From: Onthophagus taurus
Lineage: Eukaryota > Arthropoda > Insecta > Coleoptera > Scarabaeidae
Direction of reading: 5' to 3'
DNA length: 64,000 bases
Assembly: GCF_036711975.1 (NCBI RefSeq)
Contig: NC_091967.1
Coordinates: forward strand, 3,162,001 to 3,226,000
In this document: positions 20,522 through 58,700 of the stretch, piece by piece
How positions within the stretch are numbered: position 1 is the first letter of the stretch
How the letters are laid out: every line of letters starts with the position of its first letter
Notes under the pieces: model-generated
Seen by the model: the letters and a program-made list of their open reading frames with translations, nothing else
The model's database searches: none
Told to the model about the DNA's origin: nothing
Position numbers and translations under genes: made by a program

Positions 20522-20659
20522 GCACACAATCTACCAGTATCGGTGATTAATTGGAGAGATTGTTTATTTTGACACTTCACTTCGATGTTTTGAATATGTT
20601 TTTTACAATTTATTTTGATTTGAGGATAAACAACTTTGTATCTTCGTCTAGCCAAGATA

Positions 20660-22002
20660 TACAGGGTGTCACACAAAAAACGCCCCAAGCTGTAACTCTG
20701 TCATTTATATTCCGATTTTTATGACCGAGGCATCAAATGAAATGGTTTGATGAATACTATGGTTCATGCTACAAATACATTTTTTTCAAGGCCATCTTCA
20801 ATTTTAAGCGATTATTAACTTTTGTTTTTCAAATTGCTCCATATATTTTTCTTCACGTCATTAGATAGAGATTGTTTTTCTGAATCCACTGATGTGCAAT
20901 ACATCCACTTTGAATGTAATTTTAGCAGAAAAAAGACACCTATATATACAGGTTGTCGCACGAGAACGCCGTAAGCTGTAACTCTGACATTTAACTTCCG
21001 ATTTTTATGAACGAGGTATCAAATGAAATGGTTTGATGAATGCTATGATTCATGCTACAAATGAACTTTTTCTAACGCCATCTTCGATTTCAGGCGATTA
21101 TCAACTTTTGATTTTCAAATTGCTCGGTATGTTTTTCTTCACGTTATGGGATAGAGATTTTTTTCTGAGCCCATCGATCTACAATACATTAACATTAATT
21201 GTAATTTTAGCAGAGAAAAGCAATTAAAACATTTTCTGAACATTGTCTTAGTCACTTCTGTAATACTGCAGTGTGCCATGGAAAAAAATAACACGCAAAA
21301 CTGATAACAGCCTTTAAATGCTACGTCCATGCCCGAAGCAGTTGTAAATGATACTTATAAGTTGTTTTTTCATTTATCCCATGGCACACTACAGTATAAT
21401 ACAAGTGACTTTAAGAGAATGTTCAGAAATTATTTTCATGTTTTTCTATGCTACAATTAAAATTAATGTTGATGTATTGTACATTAATGGATTCAGAAAA
21501 AAAAACTCTATCCAATAGCGTGAAGACATACATACCGAGCAATTTGAAAATCAAATGTTGATAATCGCTAGAAATTGAAGATGGCGTTGGAAAAAGTTTA
21601 TTTGTAGCATGAATCATAGTATTCATCAAACCATTTCATTTGATAGCTAGGTCATGAAAATTGGAAAGTAAATGACAGAGGTACAGCTAGCGGCGTTCTT
21701 GTGTGGCAACCTGTATATACAGGTGTCTTTTCTCTACTAAAATTATATTCAAAATGGATGTATTGTACATCAGTGGATCCAGAAAAACAATCTCTATCCA
21801 ATGACGCAAAGAAAAATATATAGAGTAATTTGAAAAGCAAATGTTAATAATCGTTTAAAATTGAAGACGGCCTTGGAAAAAATTTATTTGTAGCATGAAT
21901 CATAGTATTCATGAAACCATTTCATTTGATAACCCGCTCATGAAAATCGGAATGTAAATGACAAAGTTACAGCTTGGGGCGTTTTTTGTGTGACACCCTG
22001 TA
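20660..22002. mobile_element. Nested long palindrome with TACAGGG ends
   Basis: A 1,343-bp palindrome centred near 21331. Outer termini are TACAGGGTGTCACAC and its inverse, flanked by TA on both sides. Each arm contains a second, related terminus (TACAGGTTGTCGCAC at ~20946 and its inverse at ~21700), followed by the same CTGTAACTCTG-type sequence, so each arm is two tandem diverged ~285-bp units. There is no transposase. Probably a non-autonomous Tc1/mariner-type foldback. Confidence 0.75.
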
Positions 22003-22158
22003 TAAGAAACATTTAACCTCAAACTTAGGCACCAAATTTGTTGTATCCAGATGTAATCGTCAAATTTTAAGGATTCTAGCGCCCCGTTCGCAAGCGACCT
22101 CTTCGGTTTGAGAGTAAATTTTTCTTATAAGAGATTTTCTATCTTTACCAATATATTA

Positions 22159-23369
22159 TACAGGGTGTATCTGAATGACATGCCCAAACTTCAGGGGGTG
22201 ATTCTTTAGGCAATTTTAAGGGTACTTTGATATATAAACCATGGGCGAATTGGCCTCCCCTAAGGAGCTACACCCCTCCAAAAATGGCGAAAAATGTTGG
22301 TTTAATTTTTTTTTCTCAAAAACCATAAACGCTAGGACAACGAAATTTGGGGAATATGTTTAACTGGTAGTAGGGCACGTTTTCACCCTATTTGTACTTT
22401 TAACCTATCCTTCTAAACTACTAAACGTAACCACCCCCTTTACATTTTTGCTAAAATTTTTTTATGCAGAGGGTAAATACATTAAAGAAAAAATTACATA
22501 GGTAGATGAAAGTATCCTAAAACTTTTTTGTCTCTATAAAATTTTTCCAAAAACGACTAATTTTTGAGAAAAAAAATAATAAAGCAAACACTGCCCGTTC
22601 AACAACGGGGTTGTCGATCAAAAGTTGGAATGAATTTTTAATGAAAAAGTCTTAGTAGGCTTTGCAATCTTTGTCAGAAATATTTTTGACGTTAAATGTC
22701 AGTGGTTTTCTTATTATTATTATTGTTTTTCAAATTAATTTATGAATAAAGTTTTACCGCATTTACGCTCGTTCACTCGACGTTTCAAAATTTTAAATAA
22801 AACAATAATAATAGTACGAAAACCACTGACATTTAAACGTCAAAAATATTTCTGACAAAGATTGCTAAGCCTGCTAAGATTTTTTCTTTAAAAATTCGTT
22901 CCAACTTTCGATTAACAACGCTACAGCTTAACAGTTAGTGTTTGCTTAATTAATTTTTTTCTCAGAAACTATTAACTTTTCGAAGAACATCAGAGAGGTA
23001 AAAAAGTTTTAGAATATTTTCGTCTATCTAAATAAAATATTTCCAATGTATTCACATCGTCATAAAAAAGATCTAGACAAAAATCGAACGAGGGTGGTTA
23101 TGTTTAGTAATTTAGAAGGGAAGATTGAAAGTACAAATAGGCTCGAAACATGTCCTATTATAAGCTAAATATATTTCCCAAATTTCGTTTTCTTGGTGTT
23201 AATGGTTTTCGGGAAAAATAAAATAAACCAAAATTTTTCGCCACTTTTGAAGGGGCGTAGCTCCGCAGGGGAGTCGAAATCGCTGATAGTTTATATGAGA
23301 AAGTACCCTTAAAATTGCCTAAAGAATCACCCCCTGAAGTTTGGGCACGTCATTCAGATACACCTTGTA
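22159..23369. mobile_element. Long palindrome with TACAGGG ends
   Basis: A 1,211-bp inverted repeat. The left end is TACAGGGTGTATCTGAATGA, mirrored at 23369 with one terminal change (CCTTGTA). The arms are ~600 bp, mirrored to a centre near 22764 rich in AATAATAAT. TA flanks both sides. No protein-coding content. Confidence 0.75.
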
Positions 23370-23566
23370 TAACGAACGATTTTGCTTAAAGTCATTGAGG
23401 TCGCTTACAACCGAGGCATTTTCGATGACGTTCATGTCTCTACATCTCTGCTTTAAAACCATAATTCTACGACCATTCGAACATATTGCAAATTAGAAGT
23501 GAGTGTCCTTTCAAGACAATTTATATATTATTATTTATATTTTATTTCAACACACTGTATAACATG

Positions 23567-24164
23567 TACAGGGTGTCCAAATTTTGATGGGTTTGCAGGG
23601 TATCTTAGTTATTATGACAGATAGAAAGTTGCGGGTTTTGCGAACCTAAGCTACTTTTTTGTGAAACTTACAATGGCGCAAACCAAACTTTCATAACTTA
23701 AGTGGTTGATTGAAATTTACGATTTTCAGACACCTACATATCTCGGCTATCCGAAAACTTAATAAAAAAGTAAAAATGGGTTCTAATAGATTTTTTCACG
23801 GGGAATCCAATGGTGTACGTAGAATTTTTCTAGTCATCACGGTTTTTGAGTTATAAACACAACTCAAATACTGAATACTCAACTTCTAAAATACTTAACT
23901 CTTTATAACTCAAAAACCGTGATGACTAGAAAAATTCTAAGTGCACCATTGTATTCTACGTGAAAAAATCTATTAGAACCCGTTTTTACGTTTCCGGATA
24001 GCCGAGGTGCCTGAAAATCGTAAATTTTGAAACACTCCTTGTATATTAAAAACGAAGAGGGCTATGAAAATTTGGTTTGCGCCATTGTAAGTTTCACAAA
24101 AACGCAGCAACTTTCTATCTTTCATAATAACTGAGATGAACCCATCGAAATTTGGACACCTGTA
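23567..24164. mobile_element. Palindrome with TACAGGG ends
   Basis: A 598-bp inverted repeat with ends TACAGGGTGTCCAAATTTTG and its inverse (TACAGGTGTCC). The arms meet near 23870-23890 (AACTCAAATACTGAATACTCAA). CATG occurs immediately outside both ends and may be a short target duplication. No coding capacity. Confidence 0.7.
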
Positions 24165-29013: not shown

Positions 29014-30434
29014 AGCTTTATTCTAAAACAATAAGAAATAGACCCAACTAACCCCATATTTTTGTAATTAGAAAAAAATAACGAATTTAATAAGCGAATA
29101 ATCATAAGTGGTTGTTTCCATTAAAAAAAACGAAAATTGTCATAATATCTCAAAATCTAAAACGAATTTGAACCAAACATATTTTTTGACAATAAAAACT
29201 ATTGTATTAATAGTGATGAATAAACATCACAATTCCTGATATTTTCTCGATTATTTTATCTCATTTCTTAGCATCCGTTAAAATCCCGCAAGCATCTGTG
29301 GTTGATGTAAAAGTAAAAATAAAATATCGTATACAGATAACAGTTTATAACTTCATAAATCTCGACAATAGGTCGTTATTTCGATTGCCAGTTGTGTGAT
29401 ACCAAAATGTTCGCAAAAATACAAAAGATCGTTAAATCATCATTAGAAATAACATAAAAACGAATCGTTCTTAATCAATACCTAAATAAATAATAGATTA
29501 CCATGATTACTTAAGATATTCTGCAATCGTATCTTCAACAAACAACCTCTTAGTTTCGGGTATCTATTTAGACCAGCTTAAAATAGTGTAGAAATACTTC
29601 ATTACTAAATAGTAGCGGAAATCTGTTAGATCATCGTCGGTTTTAGTGAACTTAATTGCATATTAGTTGGTTAATCTGAAAAGTTATTTGCACTACTAAT
29701 ACATGTATTCAAAGCATGAACGAATGCATAATATTTAAAGGCAGTTGTAATGTCGGTGTCACACAGTTCACAGCGCAATTTTTCTGTAAGTTGCTTAACT
29801 CTAATTAAGATGTTTTTGACATTAAATTACTCATATCTGAGTCACTACTTAGCCGATTAATTAAAAGATAATTATTAGGATTTTTAAAAGAAATTTGTAA
29901 AGTTGTGAAAATTTAAAGAGTACTAGCGCCATCTGTTACTCCGTATGTTAAGGTCCCATTGAATGCAATGCAATTAGACCATCGAGAACAGTGTTTAGAG
30001 TGTGTAGGAGTGTTTTATTTAGCTTAACGAAGAAATGTTGCTAATAAAAACGTGCAATTGGTGTGATTTCTTACCGTAAAACTTTCTCGAGATGATCAAA
30101 AACTTTCACTAAGTTGACAATCCGGAGAAATGGTGTCACTATATGCTGCTAATGCAGATCAAATTTTTCTCTCTTGAGCACTGTCATGCGAATTTTCAAT
30201 GAATAACCAGAAAATCTCCACCGGGATCCCGTATCCAGGCCTTGTGGTCAAAAGCAAAACGTACCACACCACAAAGGTTTCAAGTTTAACTAATTTATTC
30301 AATAACATTCATTTCTAACCTATAAATTTTTAAGTTCAATTGTTTATTAAATTAATTCTACTAAAATATACATAATTTAGCTTCTTAAATGATGAAATTT
30401 GATACTAATTAATTTCTTTTTTGTTTATTTTAGG
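29014..30434. other. Upstream region of the C5-epimerase gene
   Basis: No coding frame. An AGATGGCGC motif (inverted) lies at 29926-29934, and the following 29940-30060 could be a leader region. A polypyrimidine tract and AG at 30415-30433 form an acceptor just before the first coding exon, so at least one non-coding leader exon should lie in this stretch; I could not place its donor. Confidence 0.4.
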
Positions 30435-30454
30435 GCCCACCACTATTTTTTATA

Positions 30455-33400
30455 ATGATGCGACTGAATTATAAATTTTTACTATGCCTATTATGTTTAA
30501 TCGTCATATTTCTAACCTCAACACTATGGAATAGTTGCGTAAACAAAGAATGGAAAAACCAAAATACTCATATTTGTCTAGGAGAATCAGGAAAATCATC
30601 AGGACATGATATCGAAGGAATCGAATGTACAATTAATGGAGATTACAGTGTTGATTGTCGAAAAGAAGGTGATGAAGTTTACGTTCCATTCACATTTTTA
30701 CAAAAATACTTTGAAGTTTATGGAAAATTAACAAGCAACGATGATAAATCAAGATTTGAATGGTCACATAGTTACAGTAAGATTTATCAGCCTAAAGGAA
30801 GGTACGATCCGAGAGGAGTTTTCATGCATTTTGAGAATTATAACGTTGAAATCCGCGAACGAGTAAAATGTGTTAGTGGGATTGAAGGGGTTCCAATGTC
30901 TACGCAATGGGAAAGTCAGGGGTATTATTACCCCACGCAAATAGCGCAATTTGGGTTGGCTCATTATAGTAAAAATCTTACTGAACCTGAACCAAGAAGG
31001 AAAGTGGTTGAAAATGCCGATAAAGAATTGGGAAAATGGACCGTACCGTTAGGTGCTTCCCTAACTAGGACTTATTTGACTGTTTTTGAAACAAACGTTT
31101 TAAATTTTTCTACTGACGCTTATACGAATGGGATTAAATTAAAAATGGACCATGTTTTGGACTTTGTCATGTCTTTAAATATACTTTTACAAGCCAATAG
31201 TAGTTTAACTGTCGTTTTACAAAATAGGGAGAATAAAGAAAATTACAATCTTCATTATATCTCATCTGATGTACATATCAGCTTACAGGTAAATATTAAT
31301 ACTTAGGGCTGGTTTATCAATATCTAGTTAAGACGATTTATTTGTCAATTAAAATTGTAGCTGATAGATAACGTCGCTGGATCGTTTATCCACCTGTAGT
31401 TTAGGGTTATCTTATAGGAAATGACAACAAAATTAAAATATAATGTCAAAAATACATTAAGCTTATAATTTTGGTGATGGATAAAAAAGAGAAAGTAAAA
31501 AGATCATGGAATTTTAGTACAGCAGAAAAGAACTTGCTGATTGATTTGGAAAACAAATATAAAAATGTTATAGAAAATAAATAATAATATAATAATTAAA
31601 AAAAATAATAATAATACACGATCATCCACAATGAAGGTCCATTAGAACTAAACAAAAAGGGTTCTGGCCAAAATAAAAACTTGAAAATTTAGATTTAAGT
31701 ATTATCAATTGCGTTCTCTTCAACTAAAATATTTTCAGATTTCTAGCACTTCCGGTTATACCGGGAGTCGCCACCTACTTTATTTTTTTAAATAGAACAC
31801 TCTGTATATATTTATACCGTGTGATGATAAAGTTTGGAACATAATTCATAATTGCGTTATTTAATACTTTCAAGAAAAACGCTCGGACAGGTCAATTTTA
31901 TTTTTAAAAAAACCAAATTGTGGCGTAAAAATTTCATGTATGACGGGACCTATTTCGGAACCGTGACGTCATCATGACTTTTTTAAATGACAACCCCATT
32001 TTTACTACCTACATAAATGATGATGTAAAAAAATTGGCACCTTACATAACAATTTGTTTGAAAAATAGCACATTCACTTTAAAAAATAAAAACGTAACTT
32101 TAATGATAAAATAATTATTGAACCCAAAAAAACAATTCAAATTCAATTCTTTGCTGTAGCGCCTCTAAATTATTAGGTCTATTAAAATAAACCTTGGATT
32201 TTAAGTAACCCCACAGAATAGAATAAACGATAGATCGCCTGAAGTTATGGTTTACTTAGTTATGGAGAAATGAAGTTATGGTACTTCCAACTTTCGAAAA
32301 GTTAACGTGCCATAGTAAACTCGGCACCAAAACATACTCCATCATGTGGCTTAAGCATGTTCTGAATCCTAAGTTGATATCCCAAAAATCGAGTGTTCTC
32401 TGATTTTTTGAACAAATGTCTGCTGCAGCAGATTTTTCTAGAAAAATTCGAATAACTCGAGAACGGCTGAATCAAATTGCAAAATGTAAAGTTATTCATA
32501 AACCTTGAAAATAGACAAATCCAAATATATAAAAATATACAGGATGTTCCATTTAAAAAAATAAAGTAGGTAGCGACTTCCGGTACAACCGGAAGTGCTA
32601 GAAACCTGAAAATATTTTAGTTGAAGAGAACGCAATTGATAATAGTTAAATCTGAATTTTCAAATTTTTATTTTGGCCATAACCTGTATAGTTCTAATGA
32701 ACGGTCGTCGTGGATGACCCTGTATAATCTATAATCTAATATACAGGGTGAGTTATTAATATCCCGTCGGTCGATAGTTACTAAACCGTTTGAAAAACAA
32801 AAAAATATTTTATACAAAAGTTGTTTGACTCATCATTTTCTATTATGTAAAATTATTTTCACTTATACAGAGTGTTCCATTTAAGCGTAACGAAGAGTAC
32901 GTCAATTTATTTAAATGGAACACCCTATTTATTTTATCATATAATGGATACAATTAAATTTGTTTATACAACCGTACTGTTACTATTTCACAACGTTCAT
33001 AGTTCCTAAGATATTCAATTGTTTTTCCAAAATGTGCCCATTACAGGATCTTTTTAAAAATGACGCAAAAACGACATTTTTTCCGATTTTGCCTTGAAAC
33101 TCCGTCAGACAATGGTCAAAGCCAGTAGGTAGATGATAGTATTCAAAGATATTAGATACACTATACAGGGTGTTCATAAAGCTTAGCTACTTTTGACGTT
33201 TTTCAAATGGCTTTTTTTTAAGTTTTTTAAATAGAACATCCTGTATATTGTGTGCTACTTGAATTACTCATCAAGTTCCCTTTAATTAATGATAAATATG
33301 TCATATATCTAACTTTAATAGTTTTCCTGATATTTAGAATTTAAAGAAAAATGTGTAATAAAATGTCATTATTGTACTTAAAAAAGTGACAGAATGTATT

Positions 33401-34682
33401 CTGTGCTTTTTTGTCACCCTGTATAATCTCGTCTCAATTTTAACCAAGATTGACAAAACTGACTCCTTTTTAACCGAAATCTAACAAAAAAATCGTCCAA
33501 CTCCTCAAAGTGATTTTGTCTTTCTTTTATAATTTAACCTCCAAAACACGATCAGCTGTTTATATCAACTTCACAAACGAAAGTCAATTATTCAAATTTG
33601 ATCAATTACGTTTCATTTCCGTTTCTAATATTAACACTCAAGGGTACCATCTATTTTCTATCTTGTTGGTTGCTACCTGGCGGGTAGAAAGTTGCTGGAT
33701 AAACGCTTCACTGAGGTTATCTGTTCTAATCTGTGCTATCTGTACCTAACAGATTTAACTCGACATTGATAAACCGGCCCTTAGTTACACTTAAAAAAAT
33801 ACAATTTTCTTATTTTAGAACAACAATATTTATCACGGTATTGGAATAATAGCAAAATGGAAACGAATCACACGTGATCTAATAATAGATTTTCAAAAAG
33901 GTATAAGTTACCTTGAAAAAGACAAATCGAAAAACAAAGTCTCCAGATCAAAATTAAAAGTAGTTAACATAATACTCAGAGGAAAGGGTGCTATTGATAA
34001 CCTAACGTTGTCTTCATCAGAACATATCCTTCAATTTTACGATTCTGCCGATTGGTTTGTAAGAAACCAAGATCCAAACACTGGCGGTTGGCAAATTCCC
34101 GTAAAACGGAAGTTGGCGTCAGGCTTCCAAGATTTAAAGCCGGGCTGGTACTCGGCGATGGGACAAGGTCAAGCTATGTCGGTCCTCTCTAGAGCATACC
34201 ATCATTCCGGCGGTGATGTAAAGTACTTAAAAGCTGCTTTAGCTGCTTTGAAACCGTTCAGAATACCAAGCGCCCACGGTGGCGTTTTAGCAACGTTTTT
34301 AAGCAAATACCATTGGTATGAAGAGTACCCAACGAAACCTTCGTCTTTTGTACTTAATGGGTTCATATACTCTTTGTTGGGTTTGTACGATTTAATGACA
34401 ATCACGCCTCCGAATTACGTTAAGGAGGCCGAATTATTGTTTAATGATGGTATGGTTTCTTTAAAGAATATGTTACCATTATTTGATATGGGAAGCACTA
34501 CTTCCTACGATTTAAGACATTTTACATTGGGTATTGCACCCAATTTAGCTCGATGGGATTACCATGCGACCCATATAAATCAATTGCTATTGTTGAGTAC
34601 TATTGATAATGAACCTCTGTTTGCCCAAACGGCCGATAGATGGCGTGGGTACATGAGTGGAAAAAGAGCTGCTCATAATTAA
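30455..34682 (+). CDS. Hsepi: D-glucuronyl C5-epimerase (heparan sulfate)
   Basis: Coding exons 30455-31288 (donor CAG|GTAAAT, phase 0) and 33819-34682 (acceptor TATTTTAG) give 565 residues, somewhat shorter than the ~615 usual for the family. The N-terminus is a type II signal anchor (FLLCLLCLIVIFLTSTLW, residues 9-26). The lumenal part shows family blocks CINGDYSVDCRKEGDEVYVPF-like sequence near residue 60, GRYDPRGVFMHFENYNVEIR, QWESQGYYYPTQIAQFGLAH, and the C-terminal catalytic area PNTGGWQIPVKRK, GWYSAMGQGQAMSVL, YDLRHF and ARWDYHATHINQL. It converts D-glucuronic to L-iduronic acid in heparan sulfate in the Golgi. A leader exon upstream is implied by an acceptor directly before the ATG. 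The single coding intron (2.5 kb) is packed with mobile elements. Confidence 0.94.
31609..32725. mobile_element. Foldback element in the epimerase intron
   Basis: The arms at ~31609-31800 and ~32525-32725 are inverted copies: CATTAGAACTA… and …TAGTTCTAATG, GGCCAAAATAAAAACTTGAA and its inverse, ATTGCGTTCTCTTCAACTAA and its inverse, then CACTTCCGGT and ACCGGAAGTG. The right end is CCCTGTA; the left counterpart is eroded. Inner AGAACACTCTGTA / TACAGGATGTTCC termini suggest a nested element. Confidence 0.65.
32740..33425. repeat. Cluster of TACAGGG-type element ends
   Basis: TACAGGG/TACAGAG-type termini occur at 32741, 32873, 33165, and inverted at 32919-32930, 33236-33246 and 33412-33423. At least two short inverted-repeat elements (32871-32932 and 33164-33247) can be paired; the others are fragments. 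No coding content. Confidence 0.5.
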
Positions 34683-36773: not shown

Positions 36774-38875
36774 ATGTCCAAATGTTCTTTGCAGCTGTAT
36801 GTGAATGAAAACTTCACGTCTCAACCCTCAATAGAGTCAAGCGATGATTTGTTGAAAAACTTAACAAGCAGTGATTGTAAGAAACGAACCATCTGTAATT
36901 ATAGAGACGTGCTAGAAAACTACAAGGAACCACTTCACAAAAATTGTACCTCTAAAACCTTAAATTCCGTTGACTCGCAAAAAAACCATCCAGTATTACG
37001 TAATTACTTATTACGGCATTCCGGAAGCGTCAAAGCATACCACAAGATAATAAAGCAACAAGAAGAAATTTTAAATCTTTGTCGAGAAAAGTTAGCAAAA
37101 AAATTCTCAAAAAGTTTTCTTAGTGGGGTTAAAGACGAGGATATTGTTAGAGCCCTAAAAATTATACAAGATACTGAAGAACCCACATCCGATAAAATCA
37201 TTTGTAAGATTTTGAGAGGAATTGTGTCTGATGTAAGCAAAAATACCTCTGAACAAAATGAAGAAACTATTAGTATTGATCAAGTTTTAAAATCTCAATA
37301 TAGTAGTATCTCTTCGTCGAGTTCAAGAAGAAAATACAGCTTTGTATTTAATAAATTAAAGACATTATTTAAAAAATCATCAAGAAATCATTCGATTTCA
37401 CTTTCCAACAATTATAATAAGCAACCAAATAGATTTGTTTACCACCAAAACTGTTTATTCAACCCAATTGAAACTCAATTTTTATATCCTTATAATAACG
37501 TAGAAGAAATCAGAAACTATAATAATTACAAACCACCATTTTATGGAAATTTCCCACCTCCAGGAATGGGGTCTAATCCCACATGCGCGTGCCATAAAAA
37601 TTTGGTGAAACTACAAAACGAATTTGAGAAACAACAAAGCGAAATTCGCCTAATTAATCAGAACCTCCAGCAATGTTTGTGTCTTTTGCACGATATTGGT
37701 GATAAGCCCCAGGAAATTAAAAATGCGCCGTTCGATTCTTTCTTTGCCAACACTAATTTCCAAGCGTATCAATTTGGTACAACAGAAAATTTATATGGAC
37801 ATGGACACAGATCACATTCGCATATACATCATAAAAAGAAACCAGAACCTAAAAAACGTGGATGGTAAGTTGAAAATTTTGATTTAAAAGTTAATTGTGT
37901 AGTGTATTTCACATTCTTTTGCAAGATCAAAATTATTATTAATGATATATTTCATTTGAAACAAGTAATTCTTTTTAAGGAGTGAAAACAGTGAATTTTT
38001 GTGTCATCAACATTTTGTAACATAAGTATTTCACATTCTTTTGCAAAAATATAAGCAATATTAACAAATTAATTATTAATATTAAAATTTCTAGGGCTCA
38101 TTCAAAGGTAAGTAAACCTAATATGATCTATATCTAAATTTTGTTGGTGTATTAAGAAGTTTAAGCATAATTGAGAAGATATAATGGATTTTTAAGTTGT
38201 AAAAGAATGTGAAACACTTAAATTTTAACGTCATCATCAACGAACGCAAAGAATAAACATTATTTTAGGAAAAAGCTGTCTGGATGCTGCGGTAATAAAA
38301 GCGATGCTGCAACTTGTGACGAAGACGACCTTTCGATCCAATCTCTACGAAGAAGACGACACAAAAAAGGTTGTTGCCAAAGCAAACATCACCACGTCTG
38401 CAGCTTAGAATGTGGACATTGGAAAATTTTAGCACATCAAGATATGATTTCTGTCGCAGCTCAAACCGATTATTTACCCGAATTTTATGTCACTGATTCA
38501 ATCTTTGACGAACCAGATGATGGAATTGCCGCCACCAGCGTTCATTCAACTATTAGTAAGGGACAATGTCAAAAACCGTGTGCAGAAAAGTTTAAACCCA
38601 AACAGTGCCAGTGTACAGAGTGTAAGTCGGCCAGGAAAAAATTAGGAATTATCAGCGAAACAAGTCCGACTGAATCAGCGTTGTCGGTCACTACAGGTTC
38701 TGAAAAGAAACACAAAAAAGGTTTATGGGGAAAATTAAAGGGAAACAAAAAGAAAAAGCGGATTAAGGGCAACAAATTAAAAAAAACGAAAAGTACTGCG
38801 AATAAAACGGACGATAAAAAAAAACGTCGATGTTGTTTAGTGAGAATATGCAAGATGTATATATGTCGTGGATAA
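36774..38875 (+). CDS. Unrecognised two-exon protein with Lys/Cys-rich terminal exon A
   Basis: Exons 36774-37864 (donor GGATG|GTAAGT, phase 2) and 38269-38875 (acceptor TTATTTTAG) join in frame to 565 residues. I do not recognise the family. Exon 1 is hydrophilic, with a helical middle (~residues 85-160), a serine run, a Cys pair NPTCACHKN and a predicted coiled coil (LVKLQNEFEKQQSEIRLINQ, ~residues 280-305), then a His/Lys-rich end. Exon 2 has SGCCGNK, KKGCCQSKHHH, AAQTDY, CQCTECK, a long lysine run, and ends RCCLVRICKMYICRG. AATAAA follows at 38886. Exon 2 is homologous in layout to exons B and C downstream. A high content of Lys and Cys with no signal peptide suggests an intracellular structural or nucleic-acid-associated protein; that is a guess. 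Confidence 0.75.
37902..37924 (+). promoter_or_regulatory. Putative docking sequence copy 1
   Basis: Contains TTTCACATTCTTTT (14 nt), beginning 44 nt after the 5' exon donor. It is the exact reverse complement of the motifs upstream of terminal exons A and B. Pairing with the copy before exon B extends to 16 bp (TATTTCACATTCTTTT). Confidence 0.55.
38024..38046 (+). promoter_or_regulatory. Putative docking sequence copy 2
   Basis: A second forward copy of GTATTTCACATTCTTTTGCA in the same intron, about 120 bp after the first. With the inverted copy at 38197-38219 it forms a 23-bp inverted repeat (21 matches), so it could alternatively be the terminal repeat of a ~196-bp MITE. Confidence 0.5.
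38197..38219 (+). promoter_or_regulatory. Putative selector sequence before exon A
   Basis: AAAAGAATGTGAAA, the reverse complement of the docking motif, ends 55 nt before the exon A acceptor boundary. The surrounding intron differs from that before exon B apart from this motif. Confidence 0.5.
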
Positions 38876-39259
38876 AACTTTGTGAAATAAATTTTCCTTT
38901 TATTTATCTATCTATTCTCTCTCTCTAAGTCGGTGCATAGGTCTCATTTCTGAGGAATCGTGACTATCTTTTCGTCTGAATCACATTTCAGCTTTTCTCA
39001 ATGTTGACAACTCCGTCCATACATGAAATGTCGCATTTTAAAATGAAAGAAGGTTATTCTGCATGAACACTCATTCCAAGAAACTACCCCAAAGCAAGTG
39101 GATATAGGAAAGAGTGAAAATCAATATTGACACTAAGCAAGAGAGGTGAAAATTAATAAAGACCTATGCATACCAAACTTTGGCAAAACTAGACCAAAGG
39201 TAACGAATATCAGGAAATCATCCGGAGGAAGGTGTAATTAACGGAAGGCCTCAATCCCA

Positions 39260-39291
39260 GATGCTAATTGCGGGTACCCACAATTAGCATC
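39260..39291. repeat. 32-bp hairpin centred on GGTACC
   Basis: GATGCTAATTGCGGGTACC and its inverted counterpart CCCACAATTAGCATC form an almost perfect palindrome with one mismatch pair. Function unknown; it lies beside an RTE fragment and may derive from a repeat. Confidence 0.6.
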
Positions 39292-39414
39292 CGGGAAGGC
39301 GGATGATTTTCAGTGTGAGATGACCATGATGAAATCAATTCCTGAATCTGTCTCCCGGTGATTTCCCAGTATACAGTGGGCGTGGATGGTGTTGGAGTAA
39401 TGTGTTTGCCACAA

Positions 39415-39640
39415 CTAGTTTATTTTCTTGGTAGAACCCAATGCTAACTTTTCTACCACCTTTTTGTATTCATCATCGGCGATTGTGTCCCCGATCTTTG
39501 CATTCATATCACTCTGGATTACCTCTGGTTGTACAATATTGAGGTTAAAAGGCTTAGCTTGGATGTTGACTACCATGATGACCACATCATGAGCCATGAG
39601 ATGTGTTGAAGTAACTACTACCTTTCCAGTGAGTTCTGGA
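39415..39640 (-). mobile_element. RTE-type LINE endonuclease fragment
   Basis: The minus-strand frame has KVVVTSTHL upstream, then VVNIQAKPFNLNIVQ, SDMNAKIGDTIADDEYKKVV and KLALGSTKK. This matches the layout of the apurinic endonuclease of RTE LINEs: a KPFN-x-x-IVQ block, then DxNAKIG, then GLG. The YAPT segment is deleted. Inactive fragment. Confidence 0.65.
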
Positions 39641-39702
39641 AAGGTTCTAATTTAATATTTATTAATTTTTATTTTATTAATTCAATTTGATTTAATAACT
39701 CA

Positions 39703-39718
39703 TAAAAGAATGTGAAAT
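39703..39718 (+). promoter_or_regulatory. Putative selector sequence before exon B
   Basis: AAAAGAATGTGAAATA lies 53-68 nt before the proposed exon B acceptor (exon start 39771), the same relative place as the copy before exon A. It is fully complementary to 16 nt of docking copy 1. Confidence 0.55.
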
Positions 39719-39744
39719 ATATTATGCGCGATTCTTATTAAATC

Positions 39745-40785
39745 ATGTACAATATTAACAATTCATTTAGTTGTGGCAGAAAGCGAAAACAAACATGTCC
39801 CCACCAATGTATATACCAACCCCAAAAACACAAGGAACATCATAACAAAGCAGAACATAACACGAAATCAATCCATGATATTGGTAAAGAACCAATTTGT
39901 AGATCCTCCGAACTTGATATTAAAAAGACTCAACATAAACGGCGTGACTTTTGCGCGTGTTGTCAGCGAAGAAGGCGTGCTTCTACAACCTCTGTTGATA
40001 CATATGGAGATGAAGAAGAGAAAAAGAAAACAAGAAAGAAAAGAGAGGTTGGAATGATATCAGAGGAGCATTCAATACATGCTTTATCTAAACATGATAC
40101 GACCACGAAAAAAAATAAAATGAGGTGTTCTTGTTGTAGAAAGAAGCCAAAAAAGGACACACAAAAAAAAGAACATGAAGACCATACAGAACACAAAGAT
40201 CATCAAGAAAAACATCAAAAAGATGAGAAGAATAAATCCAAAATTAAATATGAATGCGATGCAATTTGTCCTGGTTTACTTTACGATCAAGAAAATCGAG
40301 CAATGCAAGCCACAATCAGTACACAAACAGTACCATTTCTGGCAAAAAAAATACTCAACACCCTTTTACACCCAAAAACGTCATCGATCGTTGATACTCA
40401 CCCTGCGGGAATTATAGAACTTCCTTGTATCCAATGCACTAAAGAAGTTAGAAGCACACGATGCCATTGCATAAAATGTAAACCAACTAGAAGTTTGATT
40501 GATTCGGGTTTTTCACCTTTAGCGTCAAGCAATCGAAAAAGTCTGAGTAATGTTACCAGTAAATCTAAAGTGTCCGGGAAATCTAAAAGCAGCATATGGA
40601 AATCGGGTGTAAATGTTAATAAGGGAAAAACTGGTAAGAAAGGTAAAAAACAAAAAGTTAAGAAAGTTAAAACAAAGAAAAAAGGGAAGAAGAAGGATAC
40701 TACGAAGAGTGAGGGCGATAAGAAAAACAAAGGGAAATGTTCTATATTTAAAATGTGTAAAATGATTTGTTGTCGTGGTACATAG
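39745..40785 (+). CDS. Lys/Cys-rich terminal exon B (or separate paralogue)
   Basis: An open frame of 346 codons from an ATG at 39745. An acceptor (AATTCATTTAG) ends at 39770. If used, the exon 39771-40785 is phase-compatible with the donor at 37864 (total 701 residues), and the junction codon restores CCGRKRK, the motif seen in the paralogous exon C. Cysteine clusters are FCACCQRRRR, RCSCCRKKPKK, CIQC, and CHCIKCK. STQTVPF parallels AAQTDY in exon A. The end is a long Lys/Gly/Ser tract and CSIFKMCKMICCRGT. AATAAA at 40811. No known domain recognised. Whether it is an alternative last exon or an independent gene starting at 39745 is undecided; the lack of room and the phase match favour the former. 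Confidence 0.65.
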   Translation: MYNINNSFSCGRKRKQTCPHQCIYQPQKHKEHHNKAEHNTKSIHDIGKEPICRSSELDIKKTQHKRRDFCACCQRRRRASTTSVDTYGDEEEKKKTRKKREVGMISEEHSIHALSKHDTTTKKNKMRCSCCRKKPKKDTQKKEHEDHTEHKDHQEKHQKDEKNKSKIKYECDAICPGLLYDQENRAMQATISTQTVPFLAKKILNTLLHPKTSSIVDTHPAGIIELPCIQCTKEVRSTRCHCIKCKPTRSLIDSGFSPLASSNRKSLSNVTSKSKVSGKSKSSIWKSGVNVNKGKTGKKGKKQKVKKVKTKKKGKKKDTTKSEGDKKNKGKCSIFKMCKMICCRGT

Positions 40786-40864
40786 TGTAATTAATTTTTT
40801 GACAGTAAATAATAAAGTGTTATTTATGTTTAGTGTATTTATTAATATCATTTTTTAACAATTC

Positions 40865-41722
40865 ATGTCTAAGATTAAATTAATTACGACTTTTTTTTCA
40901 ATAATGCGTGACTCTTCGCCAAATCACGCACTTTTGAATAAAACCAGATCTTACCACATTATGACACTAAACAATTTTCCTGTCGATAGCTGTAAAAAGA
41001 GAGGAAAAAGTTGCTGTGGGCGAAAACGCAAAAAAGAAAAAATACCCGAAGAGAAGAAAAAATCTTCATCAACGCACACCGTGGCAATAAACACAACCCC
41101 TCTAAAAACAAGTACAGTTGGAGCCCAAACTGACAAAGAAAAAACCATAATCACAGATGCTATTATTTTAACAGCAGAAACCCCATCAAAGAACCACACA
41201 AAAAAAGATCACAACGACATCGAATTAACTCAGCATAATTCCCCATCAAATCCATCAACACCAAGTACTAAAAAACATCAACACTTAGACGTTGATTTTT
41301 TATCCCATCATTCTTCGAATTCTCCAAAGAATGAAAAAGGTATAGCTGCTGTTGAAATTTATTGCGCGGATGATGGTTATGCTAATCGAGTTTGTTATTG
41401 TAAAAAAAACGAACGTATGAAGAAAGAATATGAAGCGCACACATCGAAGGTGAAAGAAAGGGGAGGAAAGCTGAAAGGGAAGGTGAAGAGGAAATTTAGT
41501 ATTACGAAGACTCATGATGTATCTTCTAATTCGTCTGTAAATACATCTTCGGGCAAATCCCAAAAATCAAATAAGATTAAAAAACATAAAAAAGTTGGGA
41601 CAAGAGGTAAAAGGAAAAAAAGTATTAAAGAAAATTCGAGTGATTCAACTCCCAAGAAAAAACGGAATTGTCTTATACGATTGTGTAAGTTTTTCTTTTG
41701 CAGCAGTTGCAGTCGTGGATGA
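40865..41722 (+). CDS. Lys/Cys-rich terminal exon C (or separate paralogue)
   Basis: An open frame of 285 codons from 40865, only 79 bp after the exon B stop. A possible acceptor (TTTTCCTGTCGATAG) ends at 40989. Exon 40990-41722 is again phase-compatible with the donor at 37864 (607 residues in total). Shared layout: SCCGRKRKK, VGAQTDKE, VCYCKKNERMKK, Lys-rich tract, and terminal CLIRLCKFFFCSSCSRG. AATAAA at 41762. No copy of the selector motif is seen before it. If translated alone from 40865, the first ~40 residues are low-complexity and not conserved in the paralogues. Function unknown. Confidence 0.6.
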   Translation: MSKIKLITTFFSIMRDSSPNHALLNKTRSYHIMTLNNFPVDSCKKRGKSCCGRKRKKEKIPEEKKKSSSTHTVAINTTPLKTSTVGAQTDKEKTIITDAIILTAETPSKNHTKKDHNDIELTQHNSPSNPSTPSTKKHQHLDVDFLSHHSSNSPKNEKGIAAVEIYCADDGYANRVCYCKKNERMKKEYEAHTSKVKERGGKLKGKVKRKFSITKTHDVSSNSSVNTSSGKSQKSNKIKKHKKVGTRGKRKKSIKENSSDSTPKKKRNCLIRLCKFFFCSSCSRG

Positions 41723-41830
41723 TTAATTACTGTTAATAATTAAAAAAAGATGTAATTAAAAAATAAACAAACTAGTTGTATGGAATGATATATTTTCTAC
41801 AATATCAAAAGGAAGACTATTAATGAGTAT

Positions 41831-43529: not shown

Positions 43530-44314
43530 TGTAAGTACAATTTTACTTCCCACTTCTCTTTTAATTTTAGTTAGAAACAAAAAACGATCGAAACGCATGT
43601 TTATTAAATGACAAACAATTGATGAAAAGTCAAAAAAACAACGAGAAAAAAAGTTACCGCGCTCTTCGATTCTCTTCATTGTTTGTAGAGGTTATGTTGC
43701 TTCTCATCCTATGATGATTCAATCTTTTAGCGAGATACAAAAGAATTTTTCGAAAACGGATTTGTCGTGATTAAAAAAAATGAACAACCTTTTTTGTTTG
43801 TTTTGAATAAACAAATAACAATAACTATAAAAAAAACCGAATGAGAGTTATTAAAATATTCAAAGAAATTATCTTGAAATGATAGTATTCTTATCTAATA
43901 AACAATTTAAACCATGATTAACTTATTTTTTTGTTTACTCTATTTCGAGTTTGACCTAGTTCTTAATGAAGTGCGTTTTAATGTGCTTTGAAGTTGATTT
44001 AAAGGGAAGAAAGAAAGAGTTGTGATTAATGATGCTTTACATACTGGGTGTTGCATTTAGTTGAAATTCAAGACGGAAACCTAAAACAGTTCCTAATTGA
44101 AAAGTGTTTCTTTAGAATTATCTATCCACCTGTGTGATGATGATTCATAGTTTATTGTTGTGTCTGATGTTTATGCGGCCGATCTATTGTTCACCATTTG
44201 CCCTGCATTTACCTTGAATTTGATCTTTAGTTGATTTTTATACACCAAGTGTTGACGATAATTCACGCAAAACGTGATTAGTTTTTGAAAACAAAATTAT
44301 GAATTGAAGTTTAG

Positions 44315-44995
44315 TTATAGATGTGAATTTTTCCAAAAAAACCACTGTTTGAGAACGATGAAAGATATTTATTTAATTTTTAAATCGGTGCTACGCTACG
44401 TTTCGACCAATAAGTTGGTCTTCTTCAGGCACGTCGTCTTAGGATGTAGCAAATGGAGGATTTGATCTATATAAATTTAACATCGCAAAGGCAATGGAGA
44501 TAATTCGTTATTTAGACGTACATAATTTTAAGTTAGAGTTTAAGGATTTACATGAGTGTAGTTACAGTTCGATGTGTGACAGTTACACATCGAACACGTT
44601 ACAGTGAAGTCAAAAAGAATTTCAAGACCTGTTCTGCAAATTGTATTCCGGTCGTCATCTTGCAAAATACTGATTTTCAAGCATTAATAATTAATAAACA
44701 CACCTACACACATTGACATATATGTATATATAGTTAAAAAAGAGAATCCGACCCTCATGTAAATCCTTAAACTCTAACTTAAAATTATGTACATCTAAAT
44801 AACGAATTATCTCCATTGCCTTTGCGATGTTAAATTTATATAGATCAAATCCTCCATTTGCTACATCCTAAGACGACGTGCCTGAAGAAGACCAACTTAT
44901 TGGTCGAAACGTAGCGTAGCACCGATTTAAAAATTAAATAAATATCTTTCATCGTTCTCAAACAGTGGTTTTTTTGGAAAAATTCACACCTATAA
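44315..44995. mobile_element. Element with ~240-bp terminal inverted repeats
   Basis: TTATAGATGTGAATTTTTCC on the left is mirrored at 44995 (TTATAGGTGTGAATTTTTCC inverted). Highly similar arms run through ACGCTACGTTTCGACCAATA and AGTTAGAGTTTAAGGATTTA to ~44560, with a ~190-bp loop. The arms are >90 percent alike by eye, so the insertion is fairly young. Non-coding; superfamily not assigned. Confidence 0.75.
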
Positions 44996-45299
44996 TTATA
45001 GATATACGATGAATATAGAGTCAACATTAGCTAAATTAGCTAAATGAAGTTTAGTTGTTTAGTCGTTCTGCATTATTTAAATAATGAAGATTTCTTCAAG
45101 AATTTTTTAAGAAGAGTTTTAGTAAAATATACATAGATATAACAATGTAAATCTCTATAGATGGCGCCGCTGTTTGCGGTAAAAAGATTGAAGTATTAAA
45201 ATGAACCTAAACAAGGTGTGGTTCTTAAAAAGTGATCAACCGGAAGTGGAAATCAAATGGTTGAAAATCGTTGTTTTCGACAAAAGTGTCATTTTAATG

Positions 45300-52033: not shown

Positions 52034-54558
52034 GTAAGTGTATGACTCAACAAGTTTAGAATAGCAAAGTGTTTCGATGTCTGGTGAGATGCTAAAATGA
52101 GTTATGGTGTTTAGCGTGTTTTCATCTCTGTTGTCTCGGCGTGGAATGAACTGGTTTTCTAAGAGCGCGTGCAGCCACGTTGAGGATCAGTGTTCCCACC
52201 TCCGCAAACGATTCTTTCTTTTTTAGCGTCTGCCCATATACGCTTACTTCCTACGGTTAGAAACACTTCAAAACAAAAGGAAACAAAACAAAATAATGTT
52301 GATTTATGACTTTATTTCTTTTTAAATTCAACGAAAGTTTATCGTATTGATTCTTTTAAACACTTCTAACTGCATAAAACGTAATTCGAGAAGTACCACA
52401 GCGCGGGTGGTCAATGATGGCACATTATACCAGTTGGTATAACGCTACGGTAACGTTGCGGCGCTCATTAATTCCATTATCATATTAATACGGTAACGCG
52501 TTACAAAGGACACCGCAATAATCGCGTCATTACAGTCATTAGGTGGAATTGAATTACAAATGATGCGACACCTTCGCGTTGCATCCGCGACCGTGACTTG
52601 TTCTTTTACAAGACACACCTTTTGATTCTTCCATCTGATTCGTGTAGAGTATTTACTCCAAAAGAGATTTTTAGATTGGTTTCAGATCGGTAATTGCACA
52701 TCGTGCAACCCAACGCTCCTCCCACTTGACGTCGTTTCCGCCGTTTGGCACGCGATGGCAGTTAAAATTTATACGACCAGTGTTTATGAAACAAGTAAAT
52801 CCTGCACGAAACTATGGTCATTCGACGAAAATAGCAGTGCTACGCGGTAATATAGTCTGTAACCGGCCACGACAGCCGTAAAGCTGTACCTTAACGACAT
52901 TACCCGTGCTATAAGCCGGAGACAATGGCTACCAGAATTGAATGACCGAAGAATTGCAGTACGAACACTTTGGGAATATTTTTATGGCTGTCACATAAAT
53001 GTTCAGATTCTTTAAGGATGCTATTATATATGTAAATACCACATACTCCTTTATAACTGATTGATTGTACTCCCTTAACTCATGTCATAAACTTTTCTTG
53101 GAAACTTATTGTGCGTAGAAGCCGTCCATTAAATTAGTGGTTATTAGACCACACGAACTACCGTAACATAACATATATAGCCTGTTCACATTTAGTTCTA
53201 AATGGTGTTTCGTTGATTCGGGGAGGTCGCCGATTTTACACGGTCTTCACGTCTTAAAATATGTTGGTTCCTTTACTATAAATAAACAATGGGTTCAATG
53301 AATCCGTTTCCATCAACCTCCTCGTATGTATGATTTCGTTCACGAGAGTCAAAATCTTGTCTATTACGCAAAATTCTATGAAGTAATCTAATGATAGATA
53401 TTTTTACCTGAATTTAGCTTGTTTTCTTTTTTCTTGACTTTCGAAACACTTTTCGGAGTAGGATTATATATAATAATTGTTATTGTAAACGCCACTTTCG
53501 AGAGGTATATTTGAAAGTAATCTAAATATCAAGGTTTGGTTTGAAGGTGTTTTCCTCATTGTTATTTTGGAGTGTGATTGACACTATATCGGATAACACT
53601 CTTTTGCTTAATTAATTGGGCTTAGTTCTTCTACCCAATTAATTGAATAAATTTTACTTTCCGTATGTTGTTTAAGTACAAGCGATTAAACTGTCCCCTA
53701 ACCTGATAAACGTACTCATGAAAACCGTTCCAAATACCCAATAAGTGGAACTGCGAGGTGAAACCCGAAAATAACTGCGAGTCTAAATCTTGACAAAAAA
53801 GGCGCCGACGTTAACTTTCGGTAAAGCTCTCAGATAATCGTTGAAGATAACAAATTGGTCGATGTATTGGTAAAAGCGTAGCAGCAATAAACCGAGAATC
53901 GTGAACTTTCTTTTTCAGTTAAAAATTGAAGAATACAAGAAACTCTATCTATTTTTGTTGGTATCTAGGCCACGGTGACATTGAGGTACGTAAAAAATCA
54001 CCTGCTACACACGGCACGTGTCGGTTAAAAAAGAATACCATCAAATTTACAAGAGGACAAAAAGTCTCATTTTTCAATTACAGTCGAAGTGAAACCGCCG
54101 CCGGGTGTGAGTCGTTCGAAAATTGATTGTTTACACCGAATGCGTAGGTTCGATTAATTTTCAGCAAATTGGATGAGTTTGCATAAATATTTGACGGGGA
54201 ACAAATTGGTAAAAGTCAAGGTTATTTTAAACTATTACATTGAATTGAATGTATACATTTATTTTGGGTACTTTATTTAACTTTGTTGTGTAAAAAATAT
54301 ATTTATTCAATTAAATTTGTTTATATTTTTTCTAACATACAAATGATACTTTACTTTGAAACTTTTATGTATTTATTTATTTATATAGTTATTTTTATTT
54401 TTCTTTCGCATTACCTAGATTTACCATTTAATATCTTTTGTGTTAATTATGTCCTCCTTTCCTTTAATTGCCGCAGTTTTTGATTCAAGTAGTTGTTTAT
54501 TCAACTTTGATTACCAAGTTAGTAGCCGATTCTTCGACTTAATGGTATTTATGTTCTA
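52034..54558 (+). other. Start of the second long intron
   Basis: No convincing exon or mobile element. Moderate GC patches at 52400-52950 with short CpG-containing stretches could be regulatory. Nothing else is seen. Confidence 0.35.
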
Positions 54559-55740
54559 TACAGGGTGTTTCGGTGACTCGGGGAACAAATTTAACCACAT
54601 ATACTAGAGTGAAAATGATGACGATTCATGTAAAAAAAATTAATAAAAGTCTTCAAATTTCAAAGATACAGGCCATCAAAGTTAAGAAATTTTAACACAT
54701 TTTTCCAAATATCTTAAACACTATTTACAGTAAAGCGCTGAAATTTGGTACAGTATAAATCAATGTGATGTAAAATCGTTAGGCAATTTATGAGTTGGAT
54801 CGGTCCGCGGGAACATTACTATACAGGCTGTTCCTAAAGTTTGTTTGCTCAGAACTTTTTTATCACATCATAACCCTACATTTATTTTTGCAGTTTCTAA
54901 TAGTAAATTTAGTTTAGAAACTTTTATTACTCTTAGATATTATTGATAAAAATCACCGTTTTTGCGTTAAATGCAAAAATGTTGGGTTCCGATTTCAATA
55001 ATAGCACTAAAAAAAAATCTAAGTTTTTGAACATTTCCTTTAGTATTTTTTATTACTTGTCTTGTAATTTTATGTCCCTTTTTTATTATTCCTGTTAGTG
55101 TTGTCGTTTTTTTGTTTATTTTTTGTTCATTGTTAATTTATTCTTTTTGCATTCTTTTATTAAACCAACTAAAACAAATTAAAAATGTGATTTAGCTAAA
55201 TCTACACTTGGACATGTTGCATACATATTAGTTATGACAGCTCAGTTCGATTTTCACTTGTCATTGCCAATTCAGATTATTTATTTATTTATTTTTTAGT
55301 GTTATTGAATTCGGAACCTAACATTTTTGCAGTTAATACGAAAACGGTGGTTTTTATCAATATTCTTTAAGAGTGATAAAAGTTTTTAAACTAAATTTAC
55401 TATTAAAAACTGCAAAAATAAATGTAGGGTTTTGATAGAAGAAAAAAGTTCTGATCAAACAAACTAACAGCCTGTATAGCATTGTTCCCGCGTACCGATC
55501 CAACTCAAAAATTGCCTAGTGATTTTACGTGATATTAGTTTACACTATACCAAATTTTAACGCTTTACCATAAATAGTGTTTAAGATATTTAGAAAAATG
55601 TGTTAAAATTTCCTAACTTTGATGGCCTGTATCTTTACAATTTGAGGACTTTTACTAATTTTTTTTTACATGAATCGTTATCATTTTTACTCTAGTATAT
55701 GTGGTTACATTTGTTCCCTGAGTCACTGAAACACCCTGTA
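54559..55740. mobile_element. Nested long palindrome with TACAGGG ends
   Basis: A 1,182-bp palindrome. The outer ends are TACAGGGTGTTTCGGTGACT and its inverse, flanked by TA. An inner pair (TACAGGCTGTTCCTAAAG at ~54823 and its inverse ending ~55477) repeats the terminal motif, so the structure is a palindrome inside a palindrome, like the element at 20660-22002 but with different arm sequence. Non-coding. Confidence 0.75.
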
Positions 55741-58700
55741 TATTAACGTTGAATTAAAGTAAGATTATAAAGGAACATTTCTATAGAAAATAGAATAAAA
55801 AGTTGTGGTACCTACCTAGATAGTTTATTAAAACGTTGAGTAACTTTGAAATGGTACAGTTCGGTTTCAATACAGCGATATTGCGTCATTGTTAAAACCA
55901 CGCACCATTACGTAGTACAAACGTACTATTTGCATGGTACTAAATCCCATTTCTGGAGACTTTCCACAACTCAGATTTCCGTAAGCGCTCCGCTTGAGTA
56001 TTATTAAATTATATTACGTTGTCATATTATGCAAATAGACTGGCAATTAGGTGCGGTTTTTAGTGGTCGGCTCGTGCGGAGCGAGCCGTCATTTTCCTAC
56101 GTCAACGTCAAACTAATGTGACATTACTACGTTGCACGAATGTTTGCATAGTTCGTGGTATGCTGTAGTATACGCGCATTATCCGCATTACGTAACGGAA
56201 TCTTTGCCTCCGGTATAGAATACGTTATTATGCGTGATGGCGTCGTTTCTCTGTTTTATCTGAGAGATGATGAGTAAACGCGCCGTGAAACATGAGCTTT
56301 TCAATTCATTACTTTAATACTAATTTCGCTATTATGTTAATGTTCATAAATAACGGTTATCTTGTATAGATATTCTTTGGTAAACAATGTGTTAAGCCAA
56401 CGGCACATGGTTGAATATATTACAGTCGCTGTAGCAAGGGCACGGTTCATCTTCGCCGCGAAATCTTCAATGAATAGCCGTGCCCGCGCCGTAAACTTAC
56501 CGTAAGACCATTCGGAATAAATCACCGATAGATAGGCCATCTAAGCGTCGCGACCCAAGTGGTCGTATCAATAAACGTGTATAAACTGCACAAACACTAT
56601 TCCGCAGACCAATAACCTACGTGTACGGCCCACATGGGCTCGTACACGAATTCGAAATCAATTCGTACTTCTTTACGCAAACGCGATTCTCGGAAGTTGC
56701 AGTTCCTCGTAGAATCTTGTAAGACACAAATCGTTCCGCATAAATTCCAACTGCGTGTTCGTCGTCAAGGCGAGGTTATCATTGAAATTGTATACCAAGA
56801 ATCGACCCCAATCAATTATATTATATTTTGTTCAACCTTAATTTTATCGATTTGTTATCTGGTTGACGCCACATTAGTTTTCGTGCTACGGGCAAGTATG
56901 TTGTTGAACTCGGAAATTTATTTCCTTAATCCCTTAAGGCTAATTCGGGGTGTAACAGCACTGCAATTGCACAACCAAACTGTAATTTTGATGCCCGTGG
57001 CGTCTTCCACTAAATTTGCATGTTTCGTTTACTTTATTTATGCGGTAGCCCGTTGCTCCCTAAGAATTGTAGAGTTACTTGCTCGTTGGGATGCAAATGC
57101 CTTCACGTTCCCAAGTAGTGACCGCTTCGGGCTGGGAACACCTTGTGACAGGTGCGTGAACGCACGTTCTGCACGTTCAGCTACAGATAACATCGGGCAT
57201 CGGTGGCTTTGTATTCAAATCACCCTGTGGCATTACGAAATTCCTCCTTTGTAGGCTTAAATTAAGCCGTAAATGGACCGAGATGTTTGAAAAATGGTCA
57301 AAAAGTGAAAGCGGTTCGTCACGTCCGATCGCTGAGATTGATGGGTGAGCAAATGGGCAATAACGTAAACGAGGAAAGATTCTCGCCAATTCGACGACCT
57401 GTTCGCAATGAAAGTTTTTTTTATATTAATTTCGATAGTTCGGGACAGCCGCAAGCTAACCAATCAGTAGGTTATTAACCGATTAATCTAAGCTTTCATT
57501 TTGTCCTGCGAAAATATCATGCGCGCCATTTCAAATAATGATTGGTTTTAATTTGTTGCTGCAAATTAGTTGCTTTCTAAAAAATTTTACCTTTTGAAAG
57601 ATCATCCTCTTGTTAAAGGAGAAATGTAAAAGTTCAAATTTGACAAATAATACCAAAATATCTAATAATTTTCTACGTGTGATATTTCATAAGACACGTG
57701 TATGTAATAAACGAGTTTATTGGGTGTGTCTCAGATGCTCTCTTTGAGTTTCAATGCTCTAGCGCAGCAAAAGGTAACGTTAAAGACGAATTGTCAACGT
57801 TTAACAGAGTGCATATTATGAAATACACTTTCGTTTCACAAAAGAAATTCTGGTGAAAACGTACACTGCCCAATAAAGTCTGGTTCTCGTGAGTACGGGC
57901 ACGTAGTACACCTTACATTGATGTTTTTCGATAAGCTCGGCAACAAATGCGGTAAATTTTCAATCATGTAAATGGGCTCTGATAAATATTTATGGGGTGG
58001 TGCCCTCTGGCTCCGCTGGAAATTATTCGGGTCTGGGCCAGGCCTCCTCCTCCCGATGTAAATCACGGAAATTGTGAAGACGGCGATCGTCGTGATCTCT
58101 CTACTGGGAGGCAGCGTGGATTTTTGATATCGTTCTATGAATTATTTATTCTGATTGAAGGCTGACATCGTGCGCGTTCTGTGACGTAAATTTGGATTTA
58201 TGGGTTGTTGAACCCGACATTCGGTTTTGTTGTGAAACCGACTGGATCGATAACGCACGACTTCGACTGTTGTTGTTGGTGTTGCCTTACTCTGTAAATA
58301 TCGATGAGTATAACATACACGACATGTTATAACTTTGTGAGATGTAAAATAGCTTTCTTTAACATCTTTGATCAGAATCAACGAAATTACATTTCTATTT
58401 TTAGACGTTACCTACTTAATTATTATATATGGTAATTTGGCAGGTCACCTTTGTTTCTTCCTGTTAAATTTGCGGCTTTCTTTTATGGGCTAAATAGGCG
58501 AGACGCGAGGAAAGTGGTCGGTACGTAAAAGTCTTCAAGTTTTATGTATGAAGATAGTTTTGCGACGATGGAAAGCGGCTTGCTGAAAGCGCCATTTGTC
58601 GGATATAAATGACTCGATTAATTTGCAGGTAAATGGGTGGTTCTTTTTGTATACCACCAACTGTGTTGTGTGCTATTGGATCTCATGCGATAATATCTGC

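Follow-up and report, generated by a model that had tools for sequence, protein, structure and literature searches.

A stretch of 64,000 nucleotides (nt) of the Onthophagus taurus genome (contig NC_091967.1, positions 3,162,001 to 3,226,000; hereafter the window) holds a gene on the forward strand in which one shared 5' coding exon is followed by three predicted terminal exons, A, B and C (Table 1). If the shared exon is read through unspliced, a TAA immediately closes its frame, and each of the three downstream acceptors leaves the frame open to a stop codon that is followed by a poly(A) signal. The predicted products with endings A, B and C are 565, 701 and 607 residues long. An earlier note on this DNA had proposed last exons with different stops and poly(A) sites, and three such in-frame endings were found; that they are used we infer from the sequence. 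Similarity at the C-terminus was detected between the A and C endings (BLASTP expectation value (E) = 5e-5 over 16 residues) and between the A and B endings (E = 7e-4 over 21 residues), and the comparison of B with C alone was not significant (E = 1.8). By eye, each ending has the motif CCG[R/N]K close to its start, and its C-terminal block of cysteine and hydrophobic residues finishes in RG. Judged by these likenesses, A, B and C are paralogous endings, each with its own stop and poly(A) signal. A Pfam search of the shared exon and the three terminal exons revealed no family above the cut-off. When the exon B protein was searched against the genome (290.8 Mb in 33 contigs, with the window on contig 2) at E of 0.1 or better, it matched itself alone; because this search missed even A and C, distant relatives would escape it. 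Every ending also contains a QT motif (AAQTD, STQTV and GAQTD) within a chain rich in lysine, cysteine and histidine, which we take, as candidates only, to recall the binding motifs of dynein light chain (LC8).

The intron that follows the shared exon and the sequences ahead of exons A and B share a 14-nt motif in four exact copies. Two copies, the cores of D1 and D2, are in forward orientation and both lie no more than 178 nt into the intron, and two copies, the cores of SA and SB, are inverted and precede exons A and B, respectively. This layout had been described in the earlier note, and exact search bore out the places and orientations of the four copies, although the copy before exon B starts at 39704 and not at 39703. 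The inverted core before exon A is separated from its acceptor by 54 nt and that before exon B by 53 nt, close to the 55 nt that had been estimated, and this near-equal spacing supports a role in RNA pairing. D1 begins 31 nt past the donor, and SB occupies the interval 42-67 nt ahead of acceptor B. In line with the note, whose author had noticed none elsewhere, there is no fifth exact copy anywhere in the window. With up to two mismatches allowed, seven matches were found in the window, only four of them exact, against a shuffle mean of 3.26 (two of 100 shuffles reached seven). Genome-wide, the 14-mer has 45 exact copies, compared with 29 for its reversed control, and 4 of the 45 lie in this 1.8 kb; these counts do not fit a high-copy terminal inverted repeat, which the earlier note had named as a finding that would speak against its proposal. 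A scan for clusters was run on 254 kb of this genome, consisting of the window and 19 stretches of 10 kb, in which a 14-mer with dinucleotide entropy of at least 2.0 had to occur at least twice forward and at least twice inverted within 2 kb (a cut-off of 2.2 leaves out this locus, whose core has an entropy of 2.1997). Six clusters were obtained, including this locus. Of the other five, one falls within a large inverted repeat elsewhere in this window, one is an A+T-rich cluster in L032, and the remaining three overlap one another in a repeat array of L020.

Table 1. Predicted exons, motif copies and repeated DNA at the locus (positions in the window).
Feature	Position	Strand	Details
Shared 5' coding exon	36774..37864	+	363 codons and two bases; donor GATG/GTAAGT
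D1, docking copy nearer the donor	37896..37921	+	core 37907-37920; best partner SB
D2, second docking copy	38023..38046	+	core 38029-38042; best partner SA
SA, selector-like inverted copy before exon A	38197..38220	+	core 38201-38214
Terminal exon A, coding part	38269..38875	+	in-frame acceptor, 201 further residues, stop; AATAAA at 38886
Patchy repeated DNA between A and B	39009..39649		partial matches on contigs C1, C3, C7 and C11
SB, selector-like inverted copy before exon B	39703..39728	+	core 39704-39717
Terminal exon B, coding part	39771..40785	+	in frame, 337 further residues; AATAAA at 40811
Terminal exon C, coding part	40990..41722	+	in frame, 243 further residues; ATTAAA at 41739, AATAAA at 41762

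When the four copies were compared with SA and SB turned over, all 14 core positions were identical in the four, compared with 6 of 60 flanking positions; the earlier note had called the intron sequence around the two inverted copies otherwise dissimilar. A duplicated segment that simply decayed would hardly leave so sharp an edge between core and flanks, and the edge suggests either selection on the core or copying that was recent and very short. The copies might have no function and be left over from short duplications, inverted and direct, produced by an old foldback element or by template-switching, and might stand before the acceptors by chance. Several traces would fit such an origin. 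D1-D2 and D2-SA each have 31 identities in 60 flanking positions (D1-SB has 26, and the other three pairs have 20); D1 and D2 have 39 nt in common at 82%; and 38023-38076 and 38167-38220 form 54-nt arms at 70%. In gapped alignments (12 comparisons), the inverted similarity between the docking side and the A-side intron continues outside the core and was equalled by 1 of 500 shuffles, with 14 of 500 for the inverted comparison of docking side and B side, 27 of 500 for the direct comparison of A and B and 11 of 500 for that of B and C. Leftovers of this kind would be expected to decay along their whole length, unless the copies were recent and very short, and the 14 of 14 core identities against 6 of 60 in the flanks are unlike that; SB, moreover, is 1.5 kb away yet lies almost as far from its acceptor as SA does from its own. 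In a genome search that skipped simple repeats and very common words, neither 37895-38235 nor 39645-39790 matched anything but itself, and no other copy of these stretches was found. We regard the leftover explanation as rather unlikely. The same search bears on the proposal, also made in the earlier note, that 38024-38219 is a miniature inverted-repeat transposable element (MITE) of which the other copies are remnants. No high-copy family was found, and a high-copy MITE or repeat is not supported, on this ground and on that of the 45 exact copies of the 14-mer; the 54-nt arms exist at 70%, and a target-site duplication was sought by eye alone and not established. Signals of homology among the introns before A, B and C were weak at most. 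By eye, the introns before B (39724-39750) and C (40904-40931) both hold an element of the form ATGCGYGAYTCTT...AAATCAYGYAC, which in the C intron is a perfect 7-bp hairpin.

The complementarity of the copies extends beyond their cores. D1 pairs with SB in 26 continuous pairs, six of which are G·U (-28.8 kcal/mol), and the D2:SA helix spans 24 positions, one of them mismatched (-25.8 kcal/mol). Weaker energies were obtained for the cross pairs (D1:SA, -22.0 kcal/mol; D2:SB, -17.6 kcal/mol; by a second helix rule, -21.2 and -19.5). Among the four dock-selector combinations examined, D1:SB has 11 extra continuous pairs to one side of the core, and an extension of at least 11 was met in about 0.1% of 200,000 random position pairs from these introns. 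The best ungapped complementarity to the docking region (37865-38095) was compared with 1000 dinucleotide shuffles. For the A-side intron, the score of 45 was matched by one shuffle (the largest, 51, lies above the observed score), and for the 200 nt before exon B the score was matched by none. Differences between each docking copy and each turned-over selector in the 12-nt flanks were classed as wobble-compatible (G·U-type) or wobble-breaking (A·C-type). The counts were 6 versus 2 for D1:SB (with 5 transversions), 3 versus 1 for D1:SA, 2 versus 2 for D2:SA and 3 versus 4 for D2:SB, the four comparisons not being independent. The motif might also be a protein-binding site on DNA, such as an enhancer, or on RNA, which acts in both orientations and pairs only as a by-product. 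DNA sites function in either orientation, and the short core, its sharp bounds and its four copies would suit such a site. Fourteen exact bases are long for a single site, however; the pairing of D1 with SB goes 12 pairs beyond the core, with six of the 26 pairs G-U; and orientation divides the donor-side copies from the acceptor-side ones. A binding site is therefore, in our judgement, quite improbable.

No selector was found for exon C by helix search and shuffles: the complementarity between the C-side intron and the docking region is no better than chance (401 of 1000 shuffles were as good). C must thus work selector-free, if it is used at all. This absence would be expected if the choice of last exon were set by the strength of poly(A) and splice sites or by exon-specific regulators, with no RNA structure involved. 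That explanation, which leaves the invariant complementary cores unaccounted for, seems improbable to us; it overlaps the leftover and binding-site alternatives, and the odds of the readings do not sum to one. Two other complementarities were noticed at the locus. Positions 39405-39418, in the repeated DNA upstream, are predicted to form a 14-nt helix with 39767-39780, which is the exon B acceptor itself (-19.1 kcal/mol), and this helix could mask that splice site. Positions 38874-38889, in the region of the exon A poly(A) signal, are 81% complementary to D1 and D2 over 16 nt, possibly by chance.

The partition function computed for 37850-39730 gave a probability of 0.987 for D1:SB and 0.992 for D2:SA, with the two helices nested and formed together; the result for 37850-39790 was the same. 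In this predicted fold the D1:SB loop encloses exon A together with its stop codon and its AATAAA poly(A) signal, and the loop is widened by the repeated DNA between A and B, whose last match stops 53 nt before SB. In shorter transcripts, ending at 38230, 38268, 38420 or 38900, SA was divided between D1 (0.50-0.86) and D2 (0.07-0.45). Each element was also scrambled in silico, with one scramble per element. Scrambling D2 left D1 divided between SB (0.40) and SA (0.54); scrambling D1 moved SB to D2 (0.72), with D2:SA at 0.24; scrambling SA left D1:SB at 0.83; and scrambling SB divided SA between D1 (0.53) and D2 (0.42). In the model, therefore, D1 is freed by D2, which behaves like an additional dock. 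D1:SA and D1:SB are mutually exclusive, and D1:SB and D2:SA are predicted jointly at about 0.99. The folding check suggested in the earlier note thus came out divided, with exon A looped out as expected and the best helices nested and coexisting rather than competing. Unconstrained duplex prediction across the whole introns gave diffuse structures and was uninformative.

Taken as a sequence arrangement, a donor-side pairing architecture with two of the terminal exons is well supported. We propose, with a probability of roughly 0.6, that the four motifs are RNA-pairing elements which bias the choice among the paralogous last exons and favour the skipping of A for B. SA would be transcribed first and would pair with D1 or D2, holding acceptor A close to the donor. 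Once SB is transcribed, D1 would pair with it over 26 bp and D2 would keep SA in a local hairpin; the D1:SB helix would shorten the distance between the donor and acceptor B and loop out exon A, stop and poly(A) signal included, leading to the B ending. D2 would then serve as a second dock, or as a decoy keeping SA away from D1, and the outcome between A and B would be set by the speed of transcription and by proteins bound to the helices. C may be a fall-back ending when A and B are both bypassed. That D2 captures SA, so leaving D1 free for SB and making the ending dependent on transcription timing, is a tentative and somewhat doubtful form of this proposal.

Several observations weigh against the pairing proposal. 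Only two of the three variant exons have a selector, and the notion of docking and selector pairing that chooses last exons holds for the A and B sides, where pairing exceeds the shuffles, and fails for C. A strong helix by itself is not unusual in this genome: 160 helices at least as strong as -25 kcal/mol, with spans of 100-2500 nt, were counted in the 254 kb, and the window accounts for 40 of these. The case leans on position, uniqueness and the shared core and not on energy alone. The fold of the 1.9-kb pre-mRNA is a prediction, and we infer from it how the transcript would fold and splice in cells. D1:SB and D2:SA are compatible, so strict competition is not built in. The raised flank identity of D1-D2 and D2-SA, at 31 of 60 against 20 to 26 in the other pairs, may represent traces of plain duplication. 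A clear wobble-compatible excess is found for D1:SB alone among the four pairs, and the gapped-alignment signals are weak for the docking side with B and for A with B.

The neighbouring sequence was also inspected. Exons of a D-glucuronyl C5-epimerase at 30434-34682 (+) represent the upstream neighbour, on the same strand as the gene studied here. A nearly perfect inverted repeat with 245-nt arms and a 197-nt spacer lies at 44312-44998, and several further large inverted repeats, some of which have TATACAGGGTGT-like ends, lie at 20658-24161, 31614-33425 and 54557-55742; all are probably mobile elements. Contig 1 opens with ACCCA repeats (L019:1-300), that is, a TTGGG telomere; telomeres of this type have a scattered distribution among insects and are reported, for example, from the beetle Apoderus coryli and from a lacewing (PMC12564400).

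The locus was compared with known systems as they are presented in excerpts of the published accounts. In Drosophila Nmnat, a complementary pair couples an alternative exon with alternative polyadenylation (PMC6027157, PMC4674693). The present locus resembles it in having a complementary pair (about 14 bp) tied to an alternative exon and an alternative poly(A) site, and in that D1:SB encloses alternative exon A with its AATAAA; it differs in having two docks, two selectors and paralogous terminal exons, spread over about 1.8 kb. For 3'-terminal exons, Nmnat rather than Dscam would be the nearest published parallel among those excerpts. The earlier note had likened the layout to Dscam exon 6, where a dock is complementary to several selectors upstream of paralogous variants (PMC6071210). 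The likeness holds for the dock, present here in two copies in the intron beside the constitutive exon, and for the paralogous variants. However, Dscam exon 6 consists of internal exons, whereas A, B and C each read to a stop and a poly(A) signal; there are two docks here, C lacks a selector, and the best pairings are nested and compatible. The proposed mechanism would resemble that of Nmnat and of docking-selector systems, but because C has no selector and the exons are terminal, we do not class the locus as Dscam-type. In srp exon 4, as here, there are two pairs of complementary intron elements with one alternative exon each, but there the pairs lie around two internal exons, and a pseudoknot impedes their forming together (PMC6071210), whereas here the docks lie upstream and the helices nest. 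Dscam1 exon 9 of Coleoptera likewise has two docks and two selector sets, although its docks flank an internal exon cluster, one upstream and one downstream (PMC8042237). In human FGFR1OP2, an alternative 3'-end exon responsive to depletion of QKI is predicted to be looped out by a conserved pairing, and the same source reports that exon-looping pairings are depleted overall (PMC8052449).

Ivanov and Pervouchine described how duplication of an exon together with one arm of a stem yields competing selectors (PMC6071210). By analogy, such a duplication would fit A and B, and C may have lost the arm or never had one. Duplicated terminal exons have been attributed to the use of alternative start sites or poly(A) sites (PMC3923563), and the excerpts at hand describe docking-selector pairing for exclusive exons that are internal; within such excerpts of the open-licence literature, no docking-selector array for terminal exons was found. 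If true, this array of two selectors and two docks with nested matched pairs would be a simple, minigene-sized case for co-transcriptional folding that sets the choice of 3' end.

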